Below are positions 1-10,759 of a DNA stretch of 10,759 nucleotides, piece after piece. Under the pieces are notes generated by a model, which did not search any database, was not told the origin of the DNA, and worked only from the letters and a program-made list of their open reading frames with translations. This DNA comes from Actinomycetota bacterium (GTDB lineage: Bacteria; Actinomycetota; Humimicrobiia; Humimicrobiales; Humimicrobiaceae): positions 11,568 through 22,326 of the forward strand of contig PMCC01000043.1 in the NCBI GenBank assembly GCA_003155275.1, read 5' to 3'. Numbering within the stretch: the first letter of the stretch is position 1; every line of letters starts with the position of its first letter. Made by a program: the position numbers and the translations under genes.

Positions 1-585
1 GTGGAATTGGTAAAAAAAGCCATAGATGAAAAGGCAACTATTGACGAAATCATAAACAAGTCTTTATCGCCGGCTATGCTGGAAGTGGGAGACAAGTTCG
101 GTTCAGGCGAGCTTTACATGCCTGACATGCTGCTTGCAGCAAAAGCCATGAAGACCGCTATGGATTATATCAAGCCGCTTCTAAAAGGTTCAGAGCATGT
201 TGCTGAAAAAGGAGTGCTGGTAATAGGCACTGTAAAAGGCGATTTGCATGACATCGGAAAAAATCTTGTAGTCACAATGGCAGAAGGCCAGGGTTTTAAA
301 GTAGTGGATTTGGGCATAGATGTTGATTACAGCAGATTTGTAGATGCAATAAAAGAACACAAACCTGACATAGTGGCATTCTCAGGCCTGCTTACAACAA
401 CCCTGGCAAATGTTCCAGCTCATATTAAGGCAATTGAGGATGCCGGACTTCGTAAAGATGTTGTTATTGCTGTAGGCGGCGCCCCGGTTACCAGGCACTT
501 TGCAGACATGTATGGCATTGAGATATACGCTCCGGATGCATCAAGCGCTGCAAAAGAGTTTGTAAAAGTCATAAGCAAAAAATAA
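1..585 (+). CDS. Corrinoid (B12-binding) methyltransferase shuttle protein, 5' end outside window
   Basis: Carries a methyl group on a cobalamin cofactor between a substrate-specific methyltransferase and a downstream acceptor methyltransferase; cytoplasmic. The visible 194 residues hold the helical cap domain (about 1-65) and a Rossmann-like B12 domain (about 70-194). The base-off/His-on signature D81-L-H83-D-I-G86 supplies the lower cobalt ligand H83, followed by S128-G-L-L-T-T-T and the V-G-G at 158-160, all typical of the MtbC/MttC family. Family members are about 210-215 aa. Aligned with the second corrinoid protein in this window, about 19 N-terminal residues are missing, so the GTG at base 1 is probably an internal valine and the gene starts upstream. 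It ends 52 bp before the first MttB-family gene, its likely partner. Family assignment is secure; the substrate is not known. Confidence 0.93.
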   Translation: MELVKKAIDEKATIDEIINKSLSPAMLEVGDKFGSGELYMPDMLLAAKAMKTAMDYIKPLLKGSEHVAEKGVLVIGTVKGDLHDIGKNLVVTMAEGQGFKVVDLGIDVDYSRFVDAIKEHKPDIVAFSGLLTTTLANVPAHIKAIEDAGLRKDVVIAVGGAPVTRHFADMYGIEIYAPDASSAAKEFVKVISKK

Positions 586-625
586 ATAACATTGCTGGCA
601 AAAGTTTTTATTGAAAAAGGCACAA

Positions 626-631
626 AGGAGG
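626..631 (+). promoter_or_regulatory. Strong Shine-Dalgarno AGGAGG fixing a TTG start at 638
   Basis: A perfect AGGAGG lies six bases before TTG at 638-640. Starting there gives a protein beginning M-R-R-G-F-T-R-K, which matches the M-R-K-G-F-I-R-K start of the paralogue at 2674. The more upstream in-frame TTG at 611 has no comparable site, and the AGGAGG itself would then lie inside the coding region. Confidence 0.85.
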
Positions 632-637
632 CAGTCC

Positions 638-2089
638 TTGAGAAGAGGCTTTACCAGAAAATTTGAACCTGTAAGGGTGCTTACTGACTCCCAGGTCGAA
701 ACCATACACAAAAGGACCCTTGAGGTTCTCTCAGAAGCCGGCTGCAAGTTTGAATCACAGCGGGCGCTAAAGCTTCTAAAAGAAAGCGGCTGCAAGGTAG
801 ATTTTGAGGGGCATATTGTATATTTTCCTCCTGATATTGTAGAAAGCAGTATTAAAAATTGCCCAAGCAGTTTTTTGGTCCGTTCAAGAGACCCAAAGGA
901 CAATCTTTTGATTGGCGGAAATACGTTATATTTTATGTCATCTCTTGGAGCGCGGCTTTCAAACATTGACACTGGCGATGTCAGCATTCCTACTATGCAG
1001 GAAAATAACCAGGCGGTGTTTATTTCTGATGCCCTTGATTCCATAGATCTTTACAGCGGGTACACTCCATATTTTGAAATCGAAGGCGTTGAGCCAGTGA
1101 TGCTCTGTTCCACGAGCCTTGCAATGAGGCTTAGAAATTCAACGAAGATTACCAGGGGAACACAGCCTACTGACACTTTCATTTGGGAGACCCAGATTGC
1201 GAAGGCTGCAGGCCAGGAGCTTATTGGAAATATGGAAGCTGCAGCTCCGCTTTCGTATCCTGAAGATGCCATAAATGCGGCATTCACCTATGTTGAGGCA
1301 GGATTTCCGGTATATATCGCAGCGGGTTCAGTAATGGGTGGAACTGCACCGGTTACTGTTGCTGGTTCGACAATCAGCAATAATGCGGAACTTCTGGCAG
1401 CAGTTGTATTTATCCAGTGTATAAAGAAAGGAACAGGAATCATTGCTAATGATTTCGTGACTCCAATGAACATGGAAAGCGGGGATTTGTTCTTCTGTTC
1501 TCTTGGCGCAAGTCTTCACCAGATGGCGTTTAACCAGATATGGCATGACCTTTATAAGATCCCGACAAACAATACCGGTTCTGCCTTTCCTTATTCCAAA
1601 AAGGCAGATTACCAGAGCGCATATGAAAAAACCCATATTGCAATGTCATCAGCGCTTTCAGGTGCGAATATGATAGTATTTCACGGCGGTGTTACGGCTG
1701 AGCTTTCTTACAACCCTATACTTGCAATAATTGATGATGATATCGCTATTACGATCGGAAAAACTATCGAAGGATTTGAGGTAAGCGAAGAGACCATGGC
1801 TGTTGATTTAATAAAGTCAGTGGGCCCTGTTCCTGGTACATTTTTAAATAAAAATCATACCAGGACCTGGTGGAAAAAGGAATATTTCATGCCCAAATCA
1901 GCTGACAGGACCTCATTTCCAGAGTGGCAGCGCACTGGTAAAAAAGGTGTAATAGAGAAAGCAAAAGAACGTATGGAAGAGATACTGGCGACACACAAGG
2001 TAAAGCCATTAAGTGGTAGTCAGGATGCTGAGATTGACTGCATACTGGATGAGGCCAGAAAATACTACAAGGCCAAAGGACTTCTTTGA
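638..2089 (+). CDS. MttB-family (non-pyrrolysine) corrinoid-dependent methyltransferase, paralogue 1
   Basis: Predicted to move a methyl group from a small substrate to the cobalt of a partner corrinoid protein; cytoplasmic TIM-barrel enzyme. It is 483 aa, normal for the trimethylamine methyltransferase family. The hallmark block S231-V-M-G-G-T-A-P-V-T-V-A-G and following S-N-N-A-E is the family's conserved glycine-rich segment, and I171-T-R-G-T-Q and N271-D-F-V are also shared with the paralogue. There is no in-frame TAG, so it lacks the pyrrolysine of methanogen MttB and belongs with the MtgB-like homologues, whose known substrates include glycine betaine, proline betaine and carnitine. The TTG start at 638 is chosen from its SD and from exact length agreement with the paralogue. 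It follows the corrinoid gene and precedes a RhaM-type mutarotase. Family sure; substrate unknown. Confidence 0.93.
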   Translation: MRRGFTRKFEPVRVLTDSQVETIHKRTLEVLSEAGCKFESQRALKLLKESGCKVDFEGHIVYFPPDIVESSIKNCPSSFLVRSRDPKDNLLIGGNTLYFMSSLGARLSNIDTGDVSIPTMQENNQAVFISDALDSIDLYSGYTPYFEIEGVEPVMLCSTSLAMRLRNSTKITRGTQPTDTFIWETQIAKAAGQELIGNMEAAAPLSYPEDAINAAFTYVEAGFPVYIAAGSVMGGTAPVTVAGSTISNNAELLAAVVFIQCIKKGTGIIANDFVTPMNMESGDLFFCSLGASLHQMAFNQIWHDLYKIPTNNTGSAFPYSKKADYQSAYEKTHIAMSSALSGANMIVFHGGVTAELSYNPILAIIDDDIAITIGKTIEGFEVSEETMAVDLIKSVGPVPGTFLNKNHTRTWWKKEYFMPKSADRTSFPEWQRTGKKGVIEKAKERMEEILATHKVKPLSGSQDAEIDCILDEARKYYKAKGLL

Positions 2090-2162
2090 TTTTTTTAAGG
2101 AATGCCGGTAAGACAAAGAGCAAAATTTAAGTATTTTATTTAAAGACGAAAGGAATAAGAAT

Positions 2163-2501
2163 ATGGAAAGCAGTTGCTTTTATATGAAAATCAAACCTGA
2201 TGGGATAAAGGGTTATGTGGATATCCATAAAAAAGGCCATGTATGGAATGAAGTGCTGGAAAATATAAAGAATGCAGGTTTTGAAAAGATGAAGATATTT
2301 ATGCTTGATAACAATGCCATTTGTTATATAGAATCGGAAAATATTGAAAAAGCATTTGAATATCTTGGGAAACAACCGGGTACGCCAAAGTGGAACGAAG
2401 CTACTTCAGCATTCATGGATACACAGCCTGATTATGGATCGGATGAAGCTGTAAAAACCCTCGAATGTGTTTTTGATTTTGAAGGCGGCGAGCAGAAATA
2501 A
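2163..2501 (+). CDS. rhaM: L-rhamnose mutarotase (RhaM) family protein
   Basis: Expected to interconvert the alpha and beta anomers of L-rhamnose or a related deoxysugar in the cytoplasm. The 112-aa protein is close to the roughly 104-aa E. coli RhaM and has the same ferredoxin-like layout: an opening strand (F6 to K11), a G17-Y18-V-D-I-H22 helix start, V27-W28-N-E-V, and W77 after the second helix. Y18 and H22 fall at the numbers of the E. coli RhaM active-site tyrosine and histidine; the E. coli Trp pair is reduced to K76-W77 here. The ATG follows AAGGA seven bases upstream. It sits between two MttB-family genes, 73 bp after the first, which is not a usual rhamnose operon neighbourhood, although a rhamnulokinase-type gene lies downstream. 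Family call is firm from sequence pattern; the exact sugar is not shown. Confidence 0.8.
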   Translation: MESSCFYMKIKPDGIKGYVDIHKKGHVWNEVLENIKNAGFEKMKIFMLDNNAICYIESENIEKAFEYLGKQPGTPKWNEATSAFMDTQPDYGSDEAVKTLECVFDFEGGEQK

Positions 2502-2663
2502 GGCAGATGAAAATAAAAAGAAAATAGAAATCCAATGATATAAAATGGTGATAGTCCAGTTGATACAAATAGCATTTTTTTAAAACTGGAAATCAAAAGA
2601 AGAAAAAGCTGCAGAATGAAACATTAAAGGGCTAAAAGAATTGAAATTTTAAAAAGAGTTAAT

Positions 2664-2670
2664 GGGGGAA
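2664..2670 (+). promoter_or_regulatory. Shine-Dalgarno-like GGGGGAA deciding the ATG at 2674
   Basis: This purine run lies three bases before ATG 2674 and overlaps the alternative ATG at 2662. Using 2674 makes the protein begin M-R-K-G-F and gives 483 aa, exactly the length of the paralogue starting at 638. Confidence 0.7.
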
Positions 2671-2673
2671 ATT

Positions 2674-4125
2674 ATGAGGAAAGGTTTCATAAGAAAGCTG
2701 GAACCTTTTAGGATCCTATCGAATGCACAGGTTGAATACATACATAGCTCAACGCTGGAAGTGCTTGAGAAAACAGGCATTAAGCTTGAAAGCGACAGAG
2801 CCTTAAAGCTTTTAAAGGAGAATGGTTGCAGAGTTGATTTTGAGATAAAAGTAGTCAAGTTCCCTCCTTTCCTTGTTGAAGAAGCAATAAGAAGCGCACC
2901 GAGCAGTTTTTCAGTAAAAGCCAGGATCCCCGAGGATGATTTGCATATAAGCCCATCAACCCTGTATTTTATGCCTGCAGCAGGCGCAAAGCTCCATGAT
3001 GAGAGGACCGGCAAGCTTTCTATTGCAACTCTTGAGCAGAACAATCAGGGAGTCAGGCTTTGTGACGCTTTGGAGACAGTTGATTTCCAGGCATCATACT
3101 GTCCTTTCTTTGAGTTAAAGGATGTTAAACCAGTGATGCTTCTGGCAGAGAGCCAGGCGAGCATCGCCAGAAACACGACAAGGGTTTCAAGAGGCGCACA
3201 AGCAACCGATTCTTTTATATGGGAGGCCCGTATTGCCAATGCTGTGGGCAAACAACTGATTGGCACCATCGAAGGGGCAGCCCCGCTTTGCTTTCCGGAA
3301 GATGCCATAAATGCGGCATTTGAGTATATGGATAACGGGTTTCCTATCTGGGCAACAGGAGGCTCTGTGATGGGTGGAAGTTCACCGGTCACAGTTGCAG
3401 GCGCAAGCATCAGCAACAATGCCGAGACCCTGGCTGCCATAACCCTTATCCAATGTTACCGGCGAGGCCATCCGGTTATTGCAAATGATTTTGTGATTCC
3501 AATGGATATGGAAAGTGGAAACCTGTTTTTTGGAGCAATAGGCTCAGGATTTCACCAAATGGCATTTAACCAGATATACAGGGACCTTTACAGGATTCCC
3601 ACCAGTAATGCAATGGCTGCATTTCCCAACTCAAAGCTTATAGATTACCAGAATGCTTTTGAAAAAACCCATCTTGCAATGAGCGCCGCGCTTTCTGGCG
3701 CAAGCATGATTGCTTTTTTGGGTTCAGTAAGCCAGGAGCTTGCGTGGAGTCCGTTGCAGGCGGTAATAGACAATGACTCGGCAAACATAATAGGACGCTA
3801 TATTGAAGGGTTTGAGATAAACAGTGACACTGCGGCTATTGAACTTATCAGCGAGGTTGGCCCGTCTCCCGGCTCTTACCTTGGCAAGAAGCACACCCGG
3901 GAAAACTGGAAGAAAGAATACTATGTGCCTAAAGTCTTTGACAGGCTTTCATATCAGGATTGGGAAAGGACCGGAAAGGTTTCAGTGATTGACAAGGCAA
4001 AGCAAAGAGCTGAAGAAATACTGGCTGAGCACAATGTGAAGCCTTTGAGCGATGATGAAGAGCGGCAGGTACGAAAGATACTCGATGACGCCAGGGCCTA
4101 CTACATGAAAAAAGGTCTTCTTTAG
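2674..4125 (+). CDS. MttB-family (non-pyrrolysine) corrinoid-dependent methyltransferase, paralogue 2
   Basis: Same predicted reaction as the gene at 638: substrate to Co(I)-corrinoid methyl transfer. A residue-by-residue hand alignment gives about 278 identities over 483 positions (57-58%) with no gaps. Conserved blocks include S231-V-M-G-G-S-S-P-V-T-V-A-G, S-N-N-A-E-T, N271-D-F-V-I-P-M, F293-H-Q-M-A-F-N-Q and H407-T-R. No in-frame amber codon. Differences concentrate in residues about 101-150, including the stretch before Y142/C143, and in the last 30 residues, so the two copies may differ in substrate or partner. The gene follows a 172-bp gap after the mutarotase, with no clear promoter seen there, and precedes its own corrinoid gene by 89 bp of AT-rich DNA. 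A two-subunit enzyme or two enzymes for successive methyl groups are both possible. Confidence 0.93.
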   Translation: MRKGFIRKLEPFRILSNAQVEYIHSSTLEVLEKTGIKLESDRALKLLKENGCRVDFEIKVVKFPPFLVEEAIRSAPSSFSVKARIPEDDLHISPSTLYFMPAAGAKLHDERTGKLSIATLEQNNQGVRLCDALETVDFQASYCPFFELKDVKPVMLLAESQASIARNTTRVSRGAQATDSFIWEARIANAVGKQLIGTIEGAAPLCFPEDAINAAFEYMDNGFPIWATGGSVMGGSSPVTVAGASISNNAETLAAITLIQCYRRGHPVIANDFVIPMDMESGNLFFGAIGSGFHQMAFNQIYRDLYRIPTSNAMAAFPNSKLIDYQNAFEKTHLAMSAALSGASMIAFLGSVSQELAWSPLQAVIDNDSANIIGRYIEGFEINSDTAAIELISEVGPSPGSYLGKKHTRENWKKEYYVPKVFDRLSYQDWERTGKVSVIDKAKQRAEEILAEHNVKPLSDDEERQVRKILDDARAYYMKKGLL

Positions 4126-4214
4126 TTAAGTTTTTATTTTGATTAAAATTTAAATAATATATTTTTAATAATATATATAATTATATTTCTGTATCAGGAA
4201 GGAGAATACTTATA

Positions 4215-4859
4215 ATGTCTGATTATATCCAGCGCTTAAAAGATATCGTCACAGATTTTGATATTGACAATGCTCAAGCAGTGGCAAAAGAAGCGATAGA
4301 GAGTGGTGTCGACCCGGTGGCAGCTGCTGCAGCATTAACCGATGCCATAAGGCAGGTAGGAGATGCATTTGGCAAAGGGGATTTGTTTTTGCCTGACCTT
4401 GTCTGCGCCTCTGAAGTACTAAAAAAAGCATTCCCTGTTATAAATGAAGCCATAGAGAAAAGCGGCCGGAAACAGGCATCCCTTGGAAAGGTCGTAATCG
4501 GAACGGTATTTGGGGACATTCATTCTATCGGAAAAGGGATGGTTGCAACCCTTCTTTATGCCGCAGGTTTTAAGGTAATTGATTTGGGTATAAACGTAAA
4601 AGGCGACGATTTTCTTAAAGCGGTAAAAGAGGAAAATGCAGACGTTCTTGCAATGTCGGCCCTTCTTACTACTACAGCCATGGAACAGAAAAAAGTTATA
4701 CAGGGCCTAAAGGACGCAGGACTGCGTGATAGGGTAAAGGTTATTGTAGGCGGAAGCCCGATAAACCAGGAGTTTGCCGACTCAATAGGCGCAGATGCCT
4801 ACGGAGCCACTGCACCCGAAGGAGTTAAGGTCATAAAAAGGCTTTTGGGTATTGAATAA
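4215..4859 (+). CDS. Corrinoid (B12-binding) methyltransferase shuttle protein, complete
   Basis: Methyl carrier for a cobalamin-dependent methyltransferase, most likely the MttB-family product encoded just upstream. The full 214 aa has the cap domain (about 15-90) and the B12-binding domain (about 92-210). The cobalt-ligand motif is D101-I-H103-S-I-G106, so the D-x-H-x-x-G consensus is kept, but the usual D-I-G-K-N context is S-I-G-K-G here, unlike the first corrinoid protein. S148-A-L-L-T-T-T and V178-G-G180 complete the site. ATG 4215 has AAGGAG at 4199-4204, a rather long ten-base spacing. The two corrinoid proteins are clearly diverged, more so than the two methyltransferases, which suggests separate dedicated pairs. 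The family is certain; the pairing is inferred from adjacency. Confidence 0.94.
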   Translation: MSDYIQRLKDIVTDFDIDNAQAVAKEAIESGVDPVAAAAALTDAIRQVGDAFGKGDLFLPDLVCASEVLKKAFPVINEAIEKSGRKQASLGKVVIGTVFGDIHSIGKGMVATLLYAAGFKVIDLGINVKGDDFLKAVKEENADVLAMSALLTTTAMEQKKVIQGLKDAGLRDRVKVIVGGSPINQEFADSIGADAYGATAPEGVKVIKRLLGIE

Positions 4860-4979
4860 ATTAAATTACTTATTGTGGAAACAGTCAAATACTCAAGCAA
4901 GGATTTTTCATTAAATGTGCCTCATGGTAAAATTTTCTAAAATAGGCATGATAATTATAAGACAGGAGTGGCAGTTAAA

Positions 4980-5765
4980 ATGGTGAAATATGATTTTAAA
5001 GGCAGGCTGGCAGCAGTAACCGGCGGAGCAAGCGGTATAGGGGAAGCTGTTTGTGAAGCTTTTGCCAAAAACTCGTCAGATGTGGCAGTAATGGACATCA
5101 ATGAAATTGCGGGCCGTAATCTTGCCGCCGAGCTATCGGAAAAATACAAAGTGAAGGCTAATTTTTACAAATGCAATGTTGCAGATTTTGAAGAGACGCA
5201 GAATACAGGCCTTAAAATATTAAAAGATTATGGCAGGATAGATACTCTTATAACCGCTGCAGGCTATGGCTCAAAAGTAGCGATAACCGAGCTTGGAATA
5301 GATGAGTGGAAAAAAACGGTAGACATTAACCTAAACGGAACATTCTATGCCATAAAGGCATTTATAAGTAAGATGATTGAACAGAAAAAGGGAAACATCA
5401 TCCTGATAGGTACCGGAGCAGTTATTACCGGAAGCGGTGGAGGGGTGCACTACGCATCAACGAAAGTCGCCCAATACGGTATTGTCAAAGCCCTGTCATA
5501 TGAGCTTTTACCTTCAGGCATAAGGTCAAATATAATAACCCCTCATATAATTGATACCCCGATGCTGCGAAAAAGATATCCCGACAATCCTGAAACTAAT
5601 GCAAAACTTGCAGCAAGGGTTCCAATCGGGCGCATCGGGCTTCCGGCAGACATTGCAAATATCGCCTTATTTTTGGCTTCTGATGAGTCGGCTTATATAT
5701 GCGGAGCTGATATAGTGGCTGATGGCGGCGGGCTTTTCTATTTAAATCCGGCAGCTTCCAAATAA
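4980..5765 (+). CDS. Classical short-chain dehydrogenase/reductase (SDR), NAD-type
   Basis: Cytoplasmic oxidoreductase expected to oxidise or reduce a hydroxyl or keto group using NAD(H). Numbering from the upstream in-frame GTG at 4968 (265 aa), the cofactor motif T18-G-G-A-S-G-I-G25 is followed by an acidic D43 ending strand 2, which favours NAD over NADP. N121 and the Y162-x-x-x-K166 pair are present, but the position 13 residues before the tyrosine, normally the catalytic serine, is T149, and the NNAG motif reads T96-A-A-G. I prefer ATG 4980 (261 aa) because the GTG at 4968 overlaps the AGGAG at 4964-4968. The gene lies between the second corrinoid gene and the kinase in the same direction. 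A sugar or polyol dehydrogenase would suit the kinase and mutarotase, but SDR sequence alone does not set the substrate. Confidence 0.88.
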   Translation: MVKYDFKGRLAAVTGGASGIGEAVCEAFAKNSSDVAVMDINEIAGRNLAAELSEKYKVKANFYKCNVADFEETQNTGLKILKDYGRIDTLITAAGYGSKVAITELGIDEWKKTVDINLNGTFYAIKAFISKMIEQKKGNIILIGTGAVITGSGGGVHYASTKVAQYGIVKALSYELLPSGIRSNIITPHIIDTPMLRKRYPDNPETNAKLAARVPIGRIGLPADIANIALFLASDESAYICGADIVADGGGLFYLNPAASK

Positions 5766-5823
5766 CTTTAATGACTATAACTATTCTGATGATTTTTGGA
5801 TTTAAGGTATTTCAGTGAGTTTT

Positions 5824-5835
5824 AAACTATAGTTT
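5824..5835. repeat. 12-bp perfect palindrome upstream of the kinase gene
   Basis: AAACTATAGTTT is self-complementary and lies about 70 bp before the kinase start, in the 139-bp gap after the dehydrogenase gene. It could be an operator; with no loop and a short stem it makes a poor terminator. Being AT-rich in AT-rich DNA, it could also be chance. Confidence 0.25.
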
Positions 5836-5877
5836 TTATAAACATTTTTTAAGAAAATTAACTAAAATTATCTTTAA

Positions 5878-5902
5878 GCGAAAGGAAATAGCGAAAGGAA
5901 AT
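5878..5902 (+). repeat. Tandem duplicate of a 12-bp ribosome-binding segment
   Basis: GCGAAAGGAAAT occurs twice, at 5878-5889 and 5891-5902, separated by one base. Each copy has an AAGGA core. The second ends two bases before ATG 5905, placing its AAGGA at a usable distance; the first is 13 bases further upstream and would be a standby site at most. Confidence 0.6.
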
Positions 5903-5904
5903 TT

Positions 5905-7386
5905 ATGGCAGTGCAGAATTATCTTATATTTGATTTTGGAGCAAGCAATGGCCGCGGTCTGGTTGCAAATTACGATGGCAGCAAGTTTGGCTTTGACGTA
6001 CTTCACAGGTTTGACAATGTTCCTGTTTATCTGGCAGGCACCATATATTGGGATTTTTTAAGATTATTTTCTGATCTTAAGGCCGGACTGGCAATGGCAG
6101 CTAAAAAATATAGGGATATAAAATCAATGGGCATTGATACATGGGGTGTTGACTTTGGTATTCTTGATAAAAACGGCGCGCTGATTGCAAACCCTGTAAA
6201 CTACCGGGATAAGCACAGAAACAGTATGCCTGCCAAAGTTTATAAGATCATTTCTGCCCGGGAGCTGCAGAATATAACAGGATGCGCGCTGGCATCCTAT
6301 TACAGCCTATTTAACCTTTATTCGCTTAAAATCCAGGATGCCACGGAATTTAACAATGCACATAAACTGCTTATGATGCCTGATTTGTTTAATTATTTCC
6401 TTACCGGGGTTGCCGTAAATGAATATACTGACGCGCATACATCGCTAATGGTGAATCCTTTTACCGCCAGATGGGAGCCGCAAATTCTTGACAGGCTTGG
6501 TTTTCCAAAGGATATTTTTTGCGAGATAGTGCAGCCGTCAAGCAAGGTAGGGGACTTACAGAAAAGTGTCTGCGGCGAGTTGGATATAAGCCCCATATCT
6601 GTTATAGCCCCGGTAACCCATGACACTCCTTCTGCAATAGCCGGCATTCCGGTCGCAGACAAGTCCAAAAATACGGTGTTTATGAGTATCGGCACCTGGG
6701 GAGTAAACGTAGTTGAGCTGAATGCACCCCTTATAAGCGATGAGGTATTTAAGACTGGGTTTGCAAATGAGGCAGGGGCTGCAGGAAAGACACTGCTTTT
6801 TAAGAACTTCGTCGGTATGTGGCTTTTCCAGCAGTCAAGGGAGAAATGGCTCAAAGAAGTCGAGGGCGGACTTTCCTGGGATGATATTATGAACCTTGCA
6901 AAAAACACTTCAACCATTAAGTCCTTTATAGATGTTGACGCCACAGAATTTGTGCTTGCCCAGACAGATATGCCCGCAACAGTCCGGGAGTTCTGCAAAA
7001 AGACGGGCCAGAAAATACCTGGGAGCATAGGCGCCGTTGCAAGAGTCATTTATGAGAGCATGGCCTTAAAAGTAAAGCATAACTTAATGGATCTGGAAAA
7101 GATTACTGGAAAAAAGATAGGTGCGATGCATATGGTCGGCGGCGGGACCAAGGATGTCTTATTATGCCAGTGGATGGCCGATGCCACCGGACTGCTGGTA
7201 TATGCCGGCCCAACTGAGACAACATCAGTAGGGAACCTGCTGATGCAGCTTTTGGCAGCAGGAGAGATAAAGAGTCTTGATGAAGGAAGACAGATAGCGC
7301 TAAAGTCAGCAAGCATAAAGAATTATGCGCCAACCAATACAGGATACTGGAACAGGATATATGAAGATTTTGTGAAGGTATTATAA
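5905..7386 (+). CDS. rhaB: Rhamnulokinase-type FGGY carbohydrate kinase
   Basis: Phosphorylates a ketose such as L-rhamnulose at O-1 with ATP; cytoplasmic. The 493 aa agree with the usual 480-490 for RhaB. Domain I opens with the phosphate loop D10-F-G-A-S-N-G-R17, followed by G76-I-D-T-W-G-V-D-F and N98-Y-R-D102, which RhaB proteins share. Domain II has T238-H-D240-T-P-S-A, where D240 is the likely catalytic base, S261-I-G-T-W and the ATP-site G412-G-G-T-K-D. These features match RhaB better than xylulokinase or glycerol kinase; L-fuculokinase is the nearest alternative. It is the last + strand gene of the cluster, 139 bp after the dehydrogenase. No rhamnose isomerase or rhamnulose-1-phosphate aldolase is nearby, so a non-standard sugar or a split pathway is possible. 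Confidence 0.87.
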   Translation: MAVQNYLIFDFGASNGRGLVANYDGSKFGFDVLHRFDNVPVYLAGTIYWDFLRLFSDLKAGLAMAAKKYRDIKSMGIDTWGVDFGILDKNGALIANPVNYRDKHRNSMPAKVYKIISARELQNITGCALASYYSLFNLYSLKIQDATEFNNAHKLLMMPDLFNYFLTGVAVNEYTDAHTSLMVNPFTARWEPQILDRLGFPKDIFCEIVQPSSKVGDLQKSVCGELDISPISVIAPVTHDTPSAIAGIPVADKSKNTVFMSIGTWGVNVVELNAPLISDEVFKTGFANEAGAAGKTLLFKNFVGMWLFQQSREKWLKEVEGGLSWDDIMNLAKNTSTIKSFIDVDATEFVLAQTDMPATVREFCKKTGQKIPGSIGAVARVIYESMALKVKHNLMDLEKITGKKIGAMHMVGGGTKDVLLCQWMADATGLLVYAGPTETTSVGNLLMQLLAAGEIKSLDEGRQIALKSASIKNYAPTNTGYWNRIYEDFVKVL

Positions 7387-7388
7387 AT

Positions 7389-8456
7389 TCATCTGAGGAA
7401 TATAAAACTGTTGCCGCCTATCTTTACAACTATGACAAACTGTATTGCCAGCAGCAGGATAAAGATTAATATGCAGAAAATTTTCAAAGGTTTTTTAATG
7501 AAATTTTTATCAGGATTTGAATACAGGATATTGTTAATTTTTAACTTAAGAAACCTTAAGTTTATTTTTTGGAAAGATACAAACCCTGAGCTTTGAATAA
7601 ATAAATATTTTTTATCAGATTTTTTATTTATGGTTTTAATTTTTAAAATAATATTTAAGACACCTGTCGCAATTATTTTTGGGGATATGCCGGAAAACTT
7701 TAATATTAAATTATCGCAGCCTTTCTCCTGCTCAAATTTAATCAGGTGATATGCAATATATGCGAAAGGATTAAAAAATAAAAGGTCCTTAAATATTAAA
7801 GACAGCCAGCTGATTAAATTATCATGCCGCCTTATATGCGCTAATTCATGGCTTAATAATATTTCTTTTTCTTCATAGGTTAAAATATCCAATAAAACTG
7901 GAGAGATGACTATTGTCGGTTTTTTAATACCCACAACAAATGGAGAAAAATAATTCCTGTAAGTTAAATTAATTTGGGGAGTTTTAACATTAAGCCTGCC
8001 TGCAGAATATTTAAGAATTTTATAAATATCCGGGATATCTGCTTCTGTTACTTTTTCTTCATAGGCCAGTCTCTTATAAAATAAAAACAGGTAAGACCAA
8101 CGTACTAATAAAATTGCCAATATGCACAAAAAAACTATGGCCAGGATAATTGTGTCAATGTTTGAATAAAATAAAAAACTATCGTTTGCTGAGTCTATTC
8201 TATGAAAAATTGTATTCGGGCTCGGAAATCTAAAACCTAAAACGCTGCTCCTGCTATTAAAAAAATTTATATTAAGCTTAAAATCTTCAAGCACAATCAG
8301 GAAAGGCTTTATCAATGGTAAAAAAAGAAACATTATCCTGATGTTGGAATCGCGTATTCTGAATACTGAAAGAATAAGCAGGACTATTGTTAAAGTTATG
8401 AAACTATCATAAACCATCACCAAAATAAAATCTTTCAAAAAGTCTATGATAGTCAT
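7389..8456 (-). CDS. M56-family (BlaR1/MecR1-like) membrane metallopeptidase lacking the sensor domain
   Basis: Integral-membrane zinc protease expected to act as signal transducer for the BlaI-type repressor encoded upstream. Hydrophobic segments lie near residues 10-31, 41-57, 101-126 and 324-346. The catalytic H203-E-L-A-H207 motif, continuing I-R-R-H-D, and a downstream E242-Q-E-K-G-C-D248 that offers the third zinc ligand are typical of M56. At 355 aa it is much shorter than BlaR1/MecR1 (near 600 aa): the protein ends shortly after the last membrane helix, so there is no extracytoplasmic penicillin-binding domain. Its start lies 13 bases after the repressor stop and has only a weak SD, which suggests translational coupling. 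The stop is two bases from the kinase stop on the other strand. Codon choice is markedly A/T-rich compared with region 1. Confidence 0.88.
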   Translation of the reverse strand: MTIIDFLKDFILVMVYDSFITLTIVLLILSVFRIRDSNIRIMFLFLPLIKPFLIVLEDFKLNINFFNSRSSVLGFRFPSPNTIFHRIDSANDSFLFYSNIDTIILAIVFLCILAILLVRWSYLFLFYKRLAYEEKVTEADIPDIYKILKYSAGRLNVKTPQINLTYRNYFSPFVVGIKKPTIVISPVLLDILTYEEKEILLSHELAHIRRHDNLISWLSLIFKDLLFFNPFAYIAYHLIKFEQEKGCDNLILKFSGISPKIIATGVLNIILKIKTINKKSDKKYLFIQSSGFVSFQKINLRFLKLKINNILYSNPDKNFIKKPLKIFCILIFILLLAIQFVIVVKIGGNSFIFLR

Positions 8457-8469
8457 GCTTTCAATTTTT

Positions 8470-8895
8470 CTATTTTATCTCTTTAAGCATTTTCTTTATT
8501 CCATCAGCTGAAACATTCTTATCATCAGACAAAAACCTTGAAACCATACCTGTGGTGGCCCCTGCCAGCAGCTTGTCAGCTACTGAATTTATTATGTTTT
8601 TTGAAAGTTCCTTTCGGTCTATTACAGCTGTATAAATGTATGTTTTGGCTGTCTTGTCCTGTCTGAGTAAGCCCTTATCGGCCAGGGCCGTCATGGTAGA
8701 CATGACCGTAGTGTAGGGGATAAACCCTTCCTCTTTATCTTCCATTTCTTTTCTTAACATAATCTCATGAACCTCACGAACTGATATGGGCCCCCTGTCC
8801 CATATGATCTTCATTATCTCAGCCTCAAGGTTGCTGATGCTGTTTATTCCGCTGATTCCTAATTCTTCCGATTTTTTTCTTAGACTGTTAACCAT
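8470..8895 (-). CDS. BlaI/MecI/CopY-family winged-helix transcriptional repressor
   Basis: DNA-binding repressor, dimeric in this family, normally inactivated by cleavage after signalling from a BlaR1-type protease. The 141 aa show the N-terminal winged helix: L23-E-A-E-I-M-K-I-I-W-D (helix 1), the P36-I-S-V-R-E-V turn and the recognition helix Y61-T-T-V-M-S-T-M-T-A-L-A-D-K-G, followed by the wing T85-Y-I-Y. The C-terminal half (about 95-140) is helical and would carry dimerisation. There is an N-terminal extension of about 20 residues compared with typical members. It is first in a two-gene - strand unit with the M56 protease. No beta-lactamase or penicillin-binding protein gene is in the window, so targets other than its own promoter would lie elsewhere. 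Confidence 0.93.
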   Translation of the reverse strand: MVNSLRKKSEELGISGINSISNLEAEIMKIIWDRGPISVREVHEIMLRKEMEDKEEGFIPYTTVMSTMTALADKGLLRQDKTAKTYIYTAVIDRKELSKNIINSVADKLLAGATTGMVSRFLSDDKNVSADGIKKMLKEIK

Positions 8896-9731: not shown

Positions 9732-10759
9732 TTGAAAGAAGAAGGCAATAAAGTAGGTCTATTATTTTATGTGTTTGTAATTTTTATAGCAGGATTGTCA
9801 TCTTTTATATATATAATTCTCAAATATAGGAATATTTCTTTGCTGGGAACTATCCTTTTCGGTTTGCTTATTTTTACATCGGATAATCTTTCTGCACCCC
9901 TGCCAAAAACCGGCAGCGTATCAGTCAATTTCGGCATATCTCTGGCAAGCCTTATTATATTCGGGCCCTCTACCGCGCTTATCGTTACGCTCATCTCCAT
10001 TTTTAATATAAAAGAGCTTGTTAAAAGAGTGCCATACTATAAGCACCTCTTTAATGCAGGGCAATACCTGCTCTCTTTTTCAGCAGGAGCAGTGCTTTTT
10101 GAATTGTATTACGACAGGTCTCAGGTAAATTTTTTTTACGCCAGGAATGTCTGGGTAATAATTCTTATAACCTATATATTCTTTATCCTGAATACCGTGT
10201 TAACTGCGGGAGCAATCTCTTTAAGTTCGGGCACTAATATACTGAATGTATGGATATTTAATTTTGCCTGGCTTATACCGTTCCAGTTTTTTCTTGCTTC
10301 AATGGCCCTGGCTATCGCTTTTTTATATCTGCGGTACAGTCCTTTTACACTTATCTTTACATCGCTTCCGCTTATAATTGCACAGTACACATATCTTCTG
10401 CGGATCAAAGAAAGGAGGACGATACTTAACAGCATTATGCAAATCGTAAAAATAATCGAAGCAAAAGACGTATACACAGCGGGCCATTCCATGAGGGTCG
10501 CTGCATACAGTGAAAAAATAGCAAGGGGAATGCGGCTGAACGAATATGATATCGAAATAGTAAAAAACCTGGCCAGCCTTCATGATATTGGTAAAATACA
10601 AATTGATTTGTCCATACTTAACAAGAAAAAAATGCTTACCAATAAGGATTGGGCAGAAATAAAAAAGCACCCTGTTATAAGCTATGAGGTTGTCAAGCAG
10701 ATAGATTTTCTAAAAGATAAGGCCATATCCATTCTTTATCATCATGAGAGAATTGACGG
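9732..10759 (+). CDS. Multi-pass membrane HD-GYP domain protein, 3' end outside window
   Basis: Probable cyclic-di-GMP phosphodiesterase with a membrane-embedded sensor. The open frame of 342 codons runs off the window. Residues 1-225 hold about seven hydrophobic segments (near 8-30, 35-51, 66-91, 110-125, 139-160, 172-200 and 204-222); the V-N-F-G-I-S-L stretch at 65 and L-F-N-A-G-Q-Y at 106 look like the N-terminal membrane module often fused to HD-GYP domains. After a short linker (K226-E-R-R) the HD-GYP domain begins: G251-H252-S-M-R-V, the metal-binding H284-D285-I-G-K, K312-H-P, and H337-H-E-R-I-D342, just before the expected G-x-G-Y-P. TTG 9732 is preceded by GAGGG at a seven-base spacing, and an in-frame stop at 9708 leaves no other start. 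Catalytic GYP residues and any further domains are not visible. Confidence 0.88.
   Translation, partial: MKEEGNKVGLLFYVFVIFIAGLSSFIYIILKYRNISLLGTILFGLLIFTSDNLSAPLPKTGSVSVNFGISLASLIIFGPSTALIVTLISIFNIKELVKRVPYYKHLFNAGQYLLSFSAGAVLFELYYDRSQVNFFYARNVWVIILITYIFFILNTVLTAGAISLSSGTNILNVWIFNFAWLIPFQFFLASMALAIAFLYLRYSPFTLIFTSLPLIIAQYTYLLRIKERRTILNSIMQIVKIIEAKDVYTAGHSMRVAAYSEKIARGMRLNEYDIEIVKNLASLHDIGKIQIDLSILNKKKMLTNKDWAEIKKHPVISYEVVKQIDFLKDKAISILYHHERID

Follow-up and report, generated by a model that had tools for sequence, protein, structure and literature searches.

Linked MttB methyltransferase and sugar-catabolism genes in Humimicrobiaceae point to a candidate anaerobic pathway for methylated sugars

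Introduction

Why would two corrinoid-dependent methyltransferases of the MttB superfamily be encoded within a sugar-type operon? The question is raised by a stretch of 10,759 nucleotides (the window: positions 11568-22326 of contig C148, PMCC01000043.1) from an Actinomycetota bacterium of the family Candidatus (Ca.) Humimicrobiaceae, whose draft genome (G000) comprises 2.18 Mb in 178 contigs and is 85% complete. Loci, genomes, and contigs carry L-, G-, and C-numbers, and papers are cited by PubMed Central (PMC) number. MthB is described as only the sixth member of the MttB superfamily with an identified substrate (PMC12155760), and the further substrates of non-pyrrolysine MttB homologs, beyond the known quaternary amines, are stated to be unknown (PMC8604678). 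Methyl and 6-deoxy sugars are components of marine dissolved organic matter, according to titles cited in PMC5120137. Here, we describe the gene cluster to which the window belongs, and we consider it probable that it encodes a pathway for the anaerobic catabolism of an O-methylated sugar; the likeliest is an O-methyl-6-deoxyhexose of the rhamnose or fucose type.

Results

Two methyltransferase sets surround a RhaM-family mutarotase

The initial annotation had described seven co-directional genes that combine two MttB/corrinoid sets with a short-chain dehydrogenase/reductase (SDR) and a rhamnulokinase-type kinase, with a RhaM-type mutarotase lying between the two methyltransferases. We found all seven on the + strand in that order, filling positions 1-7386 (Table 1) with intergenic gaps of 25-160 bases. 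On the + strand, 1-7386 showed no terminator-like site; promoter- and terminator-like sites were as frequent as in shuffled sequence, and an Rfam search at gathering scores gave no RNA element match in the window or in L012. The window truncates the first corrinoid gene, whose full open reading frame (L012:11556-12152) begins upstream. An unresolved base (L012:11556-11567) falls inside this gene just ahead of the window start, leaving its 5' end uncertain in the assembly. MttB1 may begin ~10 codons and MttB2 ~4 codons further in than tabulated, where most aligned orthologs begin.

Table 1. Features of the window, with positions counted from its first letter
Feature	Positions	Strand	Evidence or remark
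Corrinoid (B12-binding) protein 1, MtgC/MtbC-like	1-585	+	PF02310 84 bits, PF02607 60 bits
MttB1, MttB-superfamily corrinoid methyltransferase without pyrrolysine codon	611-2089	+	PF06253 240 bits
RhaM-family sugar mutarotase	2163-2501	+	PF05336 70 bits; TIGR02625 24.5 bits, below cut-off 99.6
MttB2, second MttB-superfamily methyltransferase, paralog of MttB1	2662-4125	+	PF06253 258 bits
Corrinoid protein 2	4215-4859	+	PF02310 90 bits, PF02607 53 bits
SDR	4968-5765	+	PF13561 176 bits
FGGY kinase, rhamnulokinase/fuculokinase branch	5905-7386	+	TIGR02627 364 bits, cut-off 528
M56 (BlaR1-type) peptidase and penicillinase-repressor-family (BlaI-type) regulator	7389-8895	-	Convergent with the kinase gene
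MASE9-like membrane region with HD domain	9732-10757	+	Open at the window end

MttB genes are linked to sugar genes across the family

We scanned the GTDB species genomes with MttB1, MttB2, and a third MttB of the same genome as the aligned query, applying two clade-specific peptide patterns that find close relatives only. Of the 19 loci returned, 17 were titled Actinobacteria, Actinomycetes, or Actinomycetota, and one each was titled Ca. Calidifonticultor and Ca. Humimicrobium oleiphilum. Relatives of MttB1 at E values up to 1e-100 were present in 22 of 61 genomes, all 22 from the window's family. Within the 35 Humimicrobiaceae genomes used for comparison, 28 had a PF06253 match; the genome of the window alone gave 11 match rows, corresponding to about nine genes.

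Two layouts recurred. Type A, which comprises the importer described below, an isomerase-like protein, a creatininase, MttB1, RhaM, MttB2, kinase, and SDR, was observed in the window's cluster, in L024, and in L025 with L073, that is, in three genomes of two genera; MttB1, RhaM, and MttB2 stay adjacent in all three, and the two relatives carry an extra RhaM. Both corrinoid genes are present in the window's cluster and in that of L025. L026 is a partial type A cluster (LacI, corrinoid protein, MttB1, RhaM, and isomerase-like protein), and on the short contigs of L029 and L038 MttB2 occurs without MttB1. Type B is represented by contig C65 of the same genome and by L027, L028, L030, L031, L033, L035, L040, L042, and L074. 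Its usual order is LacI, corrinoid protein, MttB3, binding protein, RbsA, and two permeases, followed by varying sets of UroD, FGGY kinase, a TIM-barrel isomerase-like protein, and RhaM. The TIM-barrel protein scored 80 bits with xylose isomerase and 70 bits with the L-rhamnose isomerase RhaI, both below the cut-offs, and weakly with IolO (37 bits, cut-off 300). Relatives also carry aldolase-type genes, namely a class II aldolase adjoining an MttB (L073) and transaldolase-family proteins (L026, L031); L027 encodes an L-rhamnose isomerase, and L030 encodes an isochorismatase-family protein.

We then compared 66 MttB places in the family (26 core, 13 middle, and 27 other) with 46 from other Actinomycetota, the phylum to which the survey was confined. 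Neighbors within 10 kb were typed by phmmer into nine sugar-gene classes, with the same queries for family and controls. The ~95 MttB rows listed for the family include pieces of one gene and rows on contigs outside the typed set; the controls, which lie in 40 hand-picked regions, came from 296 phylum genomes drawn (five candidates were scored for some) and ~74 match rows outside the family. The recurrent linkage on which the initial annotation had staked its interpretation was borne out: at least one sugar class lay near 22 of 26 core places, in 11 genera, whereas none was found within 10 kb of the 46 controls, although the queries were taken from the window's family and distant sugar genes at control loci could escape them. 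Over 763 kb of control DNA, the best scores were at most 118 bits for the RbsA query, 97 for SDR, and 34 for UroD, and the CUT1 query met one protein at 26 bits; a corrinoid protein was nearby in 30 of these controls and a RACo-type activator in 19.

Two or more sugar classes accompanied 19 of the 26 core places. Among the 18 core places with at least 8 kb of flank, 17 had any sugar class, 14 RbsA, 13 RhaM, and 11 FGGY; by genus, RbsA was linked in eight and RhaM in five. Linkage was also present in the middle set (380-550 bits; at least one class in 8/13, two or more in 3/13) and beside the other family MttBs (17/27 and 10/27), there mainly with CUT1 permeases, ROK kinases, and isomerase-like proteins. 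Conversely, of the 52 RhaM rows of the family (35 genomes), 19 lay within 12 kb of an MttB, versus ~2.7% expected. The linkage of MttB with sugar genes exceeds chance; the counted rows share ancestry, so p values are nominal.

MttB1 and MttB2 have lost the proposed betaine-binding residues

Both proteins belong to the MttB superfamily (COG5598, PF06253), scoring above the Pfam gathering cut-off and having the MttB fold. They are 57% identical, and MttB2 falls in a separate subclade with a support of 100. A pyrrolysine trimethylamine methyltransferase (TIGR02369) was ruled out, as neither frame has an internal stop and the scores are 274 and 293 bits versus a cut-off of 525. Corrinoid proteins are encoded alongside; both keep Asp-x-His (D-L-H in corrinoid protein 1 and D-I-H in corrinoid protein 2), with a Thr 51 positions beyond the His, the same triad as in MttC (PMC9842639).

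We derived the tree and the pocket counts from a merged set in which near-identical proteins of different genomes were pooled (100 of 105 proteins plus MtgB, which was itself counted in the subclade and pocket tally, under label M by its name); five proteins under 400 residues were dropped, and frames over 560 residues were trimmed. Of the four MtgB residues with a proposed role in glycine betaine binding (Y94, N199, R309, and H345), none was kept in any of 22 clade proteins; Y94, the proposed cation-stacking residue, was replaced in all 22 by Ala, Leu, Thr, or Val. The MttB1 pocket has two conserved glutamates, E209 and E364. N199, R309, and H345 were kept together in 26 of 44 control MttBs. 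This loss argues against MtgB-type binding and by itself does not prove a sugar substrate. Taken with the gene context, it disfavors demethylation of a betaine or an amine. No metal site was evident when the invariant alignment columns were inspected by eye.

MttB1 also matched 146 plasmid records, with identities of 24-27% among the 30 matches listed; judging from their names, we take these to be mostly Alphaproteobacteria and one archaeon.

The rest of the cluster resembles sugar uptake and processing

The cluster begins ~11 kb upstream of the window on the same strand, and the window forms the 3' part of a longer sugar-type operon. Upstream, a UroD-like protein comes first, followed by a DeoR regulator. 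Next are the genes for an RbsB-type binding protein (ortholog at L024:1944-3197), an RbsA-type ATPase, and two RbsC-type permeases, and after these an isomerase-like protein of 473 residues, a member of the creatininase family, and another UroD-like protein. The RbsB-, RbsA-, and RbsC-type subunits stand together (PF13407, PF02653, and RbsA homology), as in a CUT2 sugar ATP-binding cassette (ABC) importer, and none of them reaches a sugar-specific NCBIfam cut-off. The isomerase-like protein had no match in the PDB by sequence, a profile search at E up to 1 giving only 0.18 or worse; its structural likeness is a lead only, because the model has a predicted local distance difference test (pLDDT) value of 51.8. 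The creatininase-family protein scored 182 bits with PF02633, 82 with the creatininase equivalog (cut-off 235), and 62 with IolN (cut-off 245). For the UroD-like proteins, the best NCBIfam matches were MtaA/CmuA-type (76 bits) and PRK06252 (65 bits), both below cut-off. An aminotransferase, a deaminase, and an amine importer are all absent from the annotated cluster genes.

In the window itself, the mutarotase has a RhaM/YiiL domain (PF05336, cut-off 23.4 bits) and falls short of the RhaM/YiiL equivalog, as the kinase falls short of the RhaB equivalog (Table 1). The solved structures nearest to the kinase are L-fuculose kinase 4c23 (272 bits) and L-rhamnulose kinase 2cgj (231 bits). No NCBIfam model reached its cut-off among the 25 matches listed for the SDR, a possible sugar, lactaldehyde, or polyol oxidoreductase.

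The genome encodes a probable route from the corrinoid to folate

The methyl group had been expected to enter C1 metabolism, and the genome contains candidate genes for this. A methyl-tetrahydrofolate (THF):corrinoid methyltransferase (NF005719, 286 bits versus 259) is encoded at L154, outside this cluster; the solved structures nearest to it are 4o0q, 4o1e, and 4o1f, labeled DHPS in the table of matches. 4O1E served as the methyl-THF template for CdmA (PMC13222342). FTHFS (in two pieces), MTHFR, and one RACo-domain protein (G000:C43, also outside the cluster) are present as well, and the corrinoid:THF methyltransferase and reductive activator of a corrinoid-dependent demethylation system thus occur in the same genome. 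Acetyl-CoA synthase CdhC (PF03598) had no match in this genome, which is 85% complete. The methyl group probably passes to folate, and from there to oxidation or biosynthesis rather than acetogenesis.

Other methyltransferase loci

Elsewhere in the same genome, an MttB lies beside a CUT1 importer and a ROK kinase (L014, G000:C85), beside a CUT1 importer, an FGGY kinase, and an isomerase-like protein (L015, G000:C51), and beside isomerase-like and UroD-like proteins (L013, G000:C136). RhaM stands next to UroD-like genes, with no MttB match on the contig, at L090:2177-4804 (G000:C124) and L091:2765-4074 (G000:C57). At L075:5517-10362 (G004:C204), the gene directly after a tandem MttB pair encodes a RACo-type corrinoid activator; RhaM, UroD-like, and corrinoid genes precede the pair. 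The cobalamin genes CobT and CobA/BtuR (L025:17229-18924) are directly downstream of the type A cluster of L025.

Discussion

We observed directly the genes, their order and recurrence, the family and fold of the MttB proteins, and their altered pocket residues. From these, we infer a substrate, a methyl-transfer step, and a direction of flow as follows. The ribose/arabinose-type ABC importer would take up the methylated sugar, and MttB1 and MttB2, together with the pair of corrinoid proteins, would transfer methyl from the oxygens of the sugar to Co(I), each MttB probably handling a different methyl position or a different isomer. RhaM would set the anomer, the arabinose/fucose-isomerase-like protein would yield the ketose, and the FGGY kinase would phosphorylate it ahead of aldol cleavage. 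The methyltransferase encoded outside the cluster would then pass the methyl group from the corrinoid to THF, and a RACo-type activator would keep the cobalt reduced. The initial annotation had proposed such demethylation of a methylated sugar-like compound; the linkage, the importer, the isomerase-like protein, the regulators, and the aldolase-family genes of relatives strengthen that proposal, while the identity of the sugar, the methyl position, and the demethylating protein, including MttB as an ether-cleaving enzyme, are still what we infer.

Known systems offer partial precedents. With the MtgB/MtgC/MtgA system for glycine betaine (2qne, 9yce), the cluster and its genome share a non-pyrrolysine MttB-superfamily enzyme, a corrinoid protein, a genome-encoded methyl-THF:corrinoid methyltransferase, and a RACo-type activator. 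It differs in the replaced betaine residues, in having two MttBs and two corrinoid proteins, and in the surrounding genes for sugar import, isomerization, and phosphorylation. MtpB, MtcB, MtyB, and MthB of E. limosum share the superfamily and the presumed Co(I) chemistry, and MthK is a precedent for a kinase within an MttB pathway; however, these methyltransferases act on quaternary amines that bear an acidic group (PMC12155760), whereas a sugar ether is proposed here. The rhaMABD and fucIKA operons have in common with the cluster a mutarotase, an isomerase-like protein, an FGGY kinase, and a sugar importer, as well as the class II aldolase of a relative; here, the proteins are below the equivalog cut-offs, the isomerase is different, and corrinoid methyltransferases are inserted. 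P450 demethylation of 6-O-methyl-D-galactose in porphyran-degrading Flavobacteriia likewise takes the methyl ether off a monosaccharide before catabolism, but it is oxidative and gives formaldehyde (PMC10033563), whereas the proposed route would be anaerobic. The Type 1 mlp clusters described by Kountz and Balskus were judged to be a different system: the abstract deals with methyl-sulfur/selenide, and a word search of the text found no MttB, sugar, or rhamnose.

Several observations weigh against the sugar-ether interpretation. The Arg309/His345 pair is also missing in 18 of 44 controls, which lack sugar neighbors; the glycine betaine residues of MtgB derive from docking, and our MttB structure model is weak in the pocket loops. 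The substrates of RhaM and the kinase are not certified, because both proteins missed the NCBIfam equivalog cut-offs though they passed those of Pfam. The draft assembly has N gaps inside the cluster, one of which splits the RbsA-type ATPase gene, and no glycoside hydrolase is found among the annotated cluster genes. The L024 cluster has no corrinoid gene within 10 kb, and four of the 26 core places lack a sugar class; the contigs of three leave 2-6 kb of flank, and that of the fourth, L039, has 10 kb on one side.

The strongest rival is that the UroD-like proteins are the sugar O-demethylases and that the MttBs work on some other methylated compound or on an intermediate that arises in this pathway. 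We consider this unlikely but a serious alternative, one that makes the sugar-ether role of MttB less certain, because the UroD superfamily includes the known corrinoid O-demethylases MtvB, OdmB, VdmB, and MtoB (PMC13222342; also PMC10418091). These enzymes, too, pass the methyl of an ether to a Co(I) corrinoid protein, and they differ in that their methyltransferase I is of the UroD superfamily and their substrates are aromatic (PMC13222342). Two UroD genes lie within our cluster. A UroD-like gene is no more than 2.5 kb away from each of the four RhaM genes of the genome, and for two of these (C124, C57) the contig has no MttB match; across the family, at least 14 of 52 RhaM rows have a UroD within 5 kb. 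UroD matches number 28 in this genome and range from 1 to 40 (G029) in the 35 family genomes. Against this stand the contiguity of MttB1-RhaM-MttB2 in three genomes of two genera, the corrinoid gene directly 5' of MttB3 in most type B clusters (L027, L030, L031, L033, L042, L074), and the alteration of the MttB pocket positions themselves. The UroD-like proteins may also provide a second route to methyl-sugar demethylation, and both readings retain corrinoid-linked methyl-sugar catabolism.

An N-methylated sugar-like compound, such as a quaternary or dimethylamino sugar or a betaine-type glycoside, would let MttB keep its C-N chemistry and leave the rest to the sugar enzymes. The creatininase-family protein of the cluster and the isochorismatase-family protein of the type B locus L030 would suit such a substrate, both families including amide hydrolases. 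The MttB-family substrates that we met in print are methylated amines (PMC8604678, PMC12155760, PMC9768040). We nevertheless regard it as improbable, given the replacement of Y94 throughout the clade and the absence of amine-processing and amine-import genes noted above. Another methylated polyol (a methyl inositol, a sugar acid, or a methylthio sugar) would be compatible with a likeness to RhaM and RhaB at the family level only and with the weak IolN and IolO matches; however, the type B TIM-barrel protein scores better with aldose isomerases, the isomerase-like protein and kinase of the cluster resemble sugar enzymes, and we give this option little credence. Least credible of all is chance or hitchhiking of MttB genes in sugar operons without a common pathway. 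The close clade was seen in only one bacterial family, in which shared ancestry could preserve an accidental order, but the link is kept across two layouts and three MttB subclades, and it extends to 17 of the 27 other-clade MttBs of the family, mostly with other transporters and kinases, versus none of the controls outside.

The protein families are established, but we did not encounter the pathway or the proposed substrate class in the literature searched: among titles and abstract starts of open-licence PMC papers, we found neither an MttB acting on a sugar nor an enzyme for anaerobic demethylation of methyl sugars, and the demethylation of monosaccharide ethers that we met in print is the aerobic P450 route (PMC10033563). 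If true, an MttB-catalyzed O-demethylation of sugars would extend the range of the superfamily beyond C-N to alkyl C-O bonds, with the sugar ether as a new substrate class, and would be an oxygen-free counterpart to the P450 route. Per genome of the family, MttB genes number up to about nine, and UroD-like genes can run into the tens. Overall, we tentatively suggest, at a little short of even confidence, that a branch of the MttB superfamily left amines and became sugar-ether O-demethylases, and that some Humimicrobiaceae are specialized anaerobic consumers of methylated sugars, in which many MttB and UroD-like methyltransferases, each serving a differently methylated sugar, would be tied to their own importer, isomerase, and kinase.

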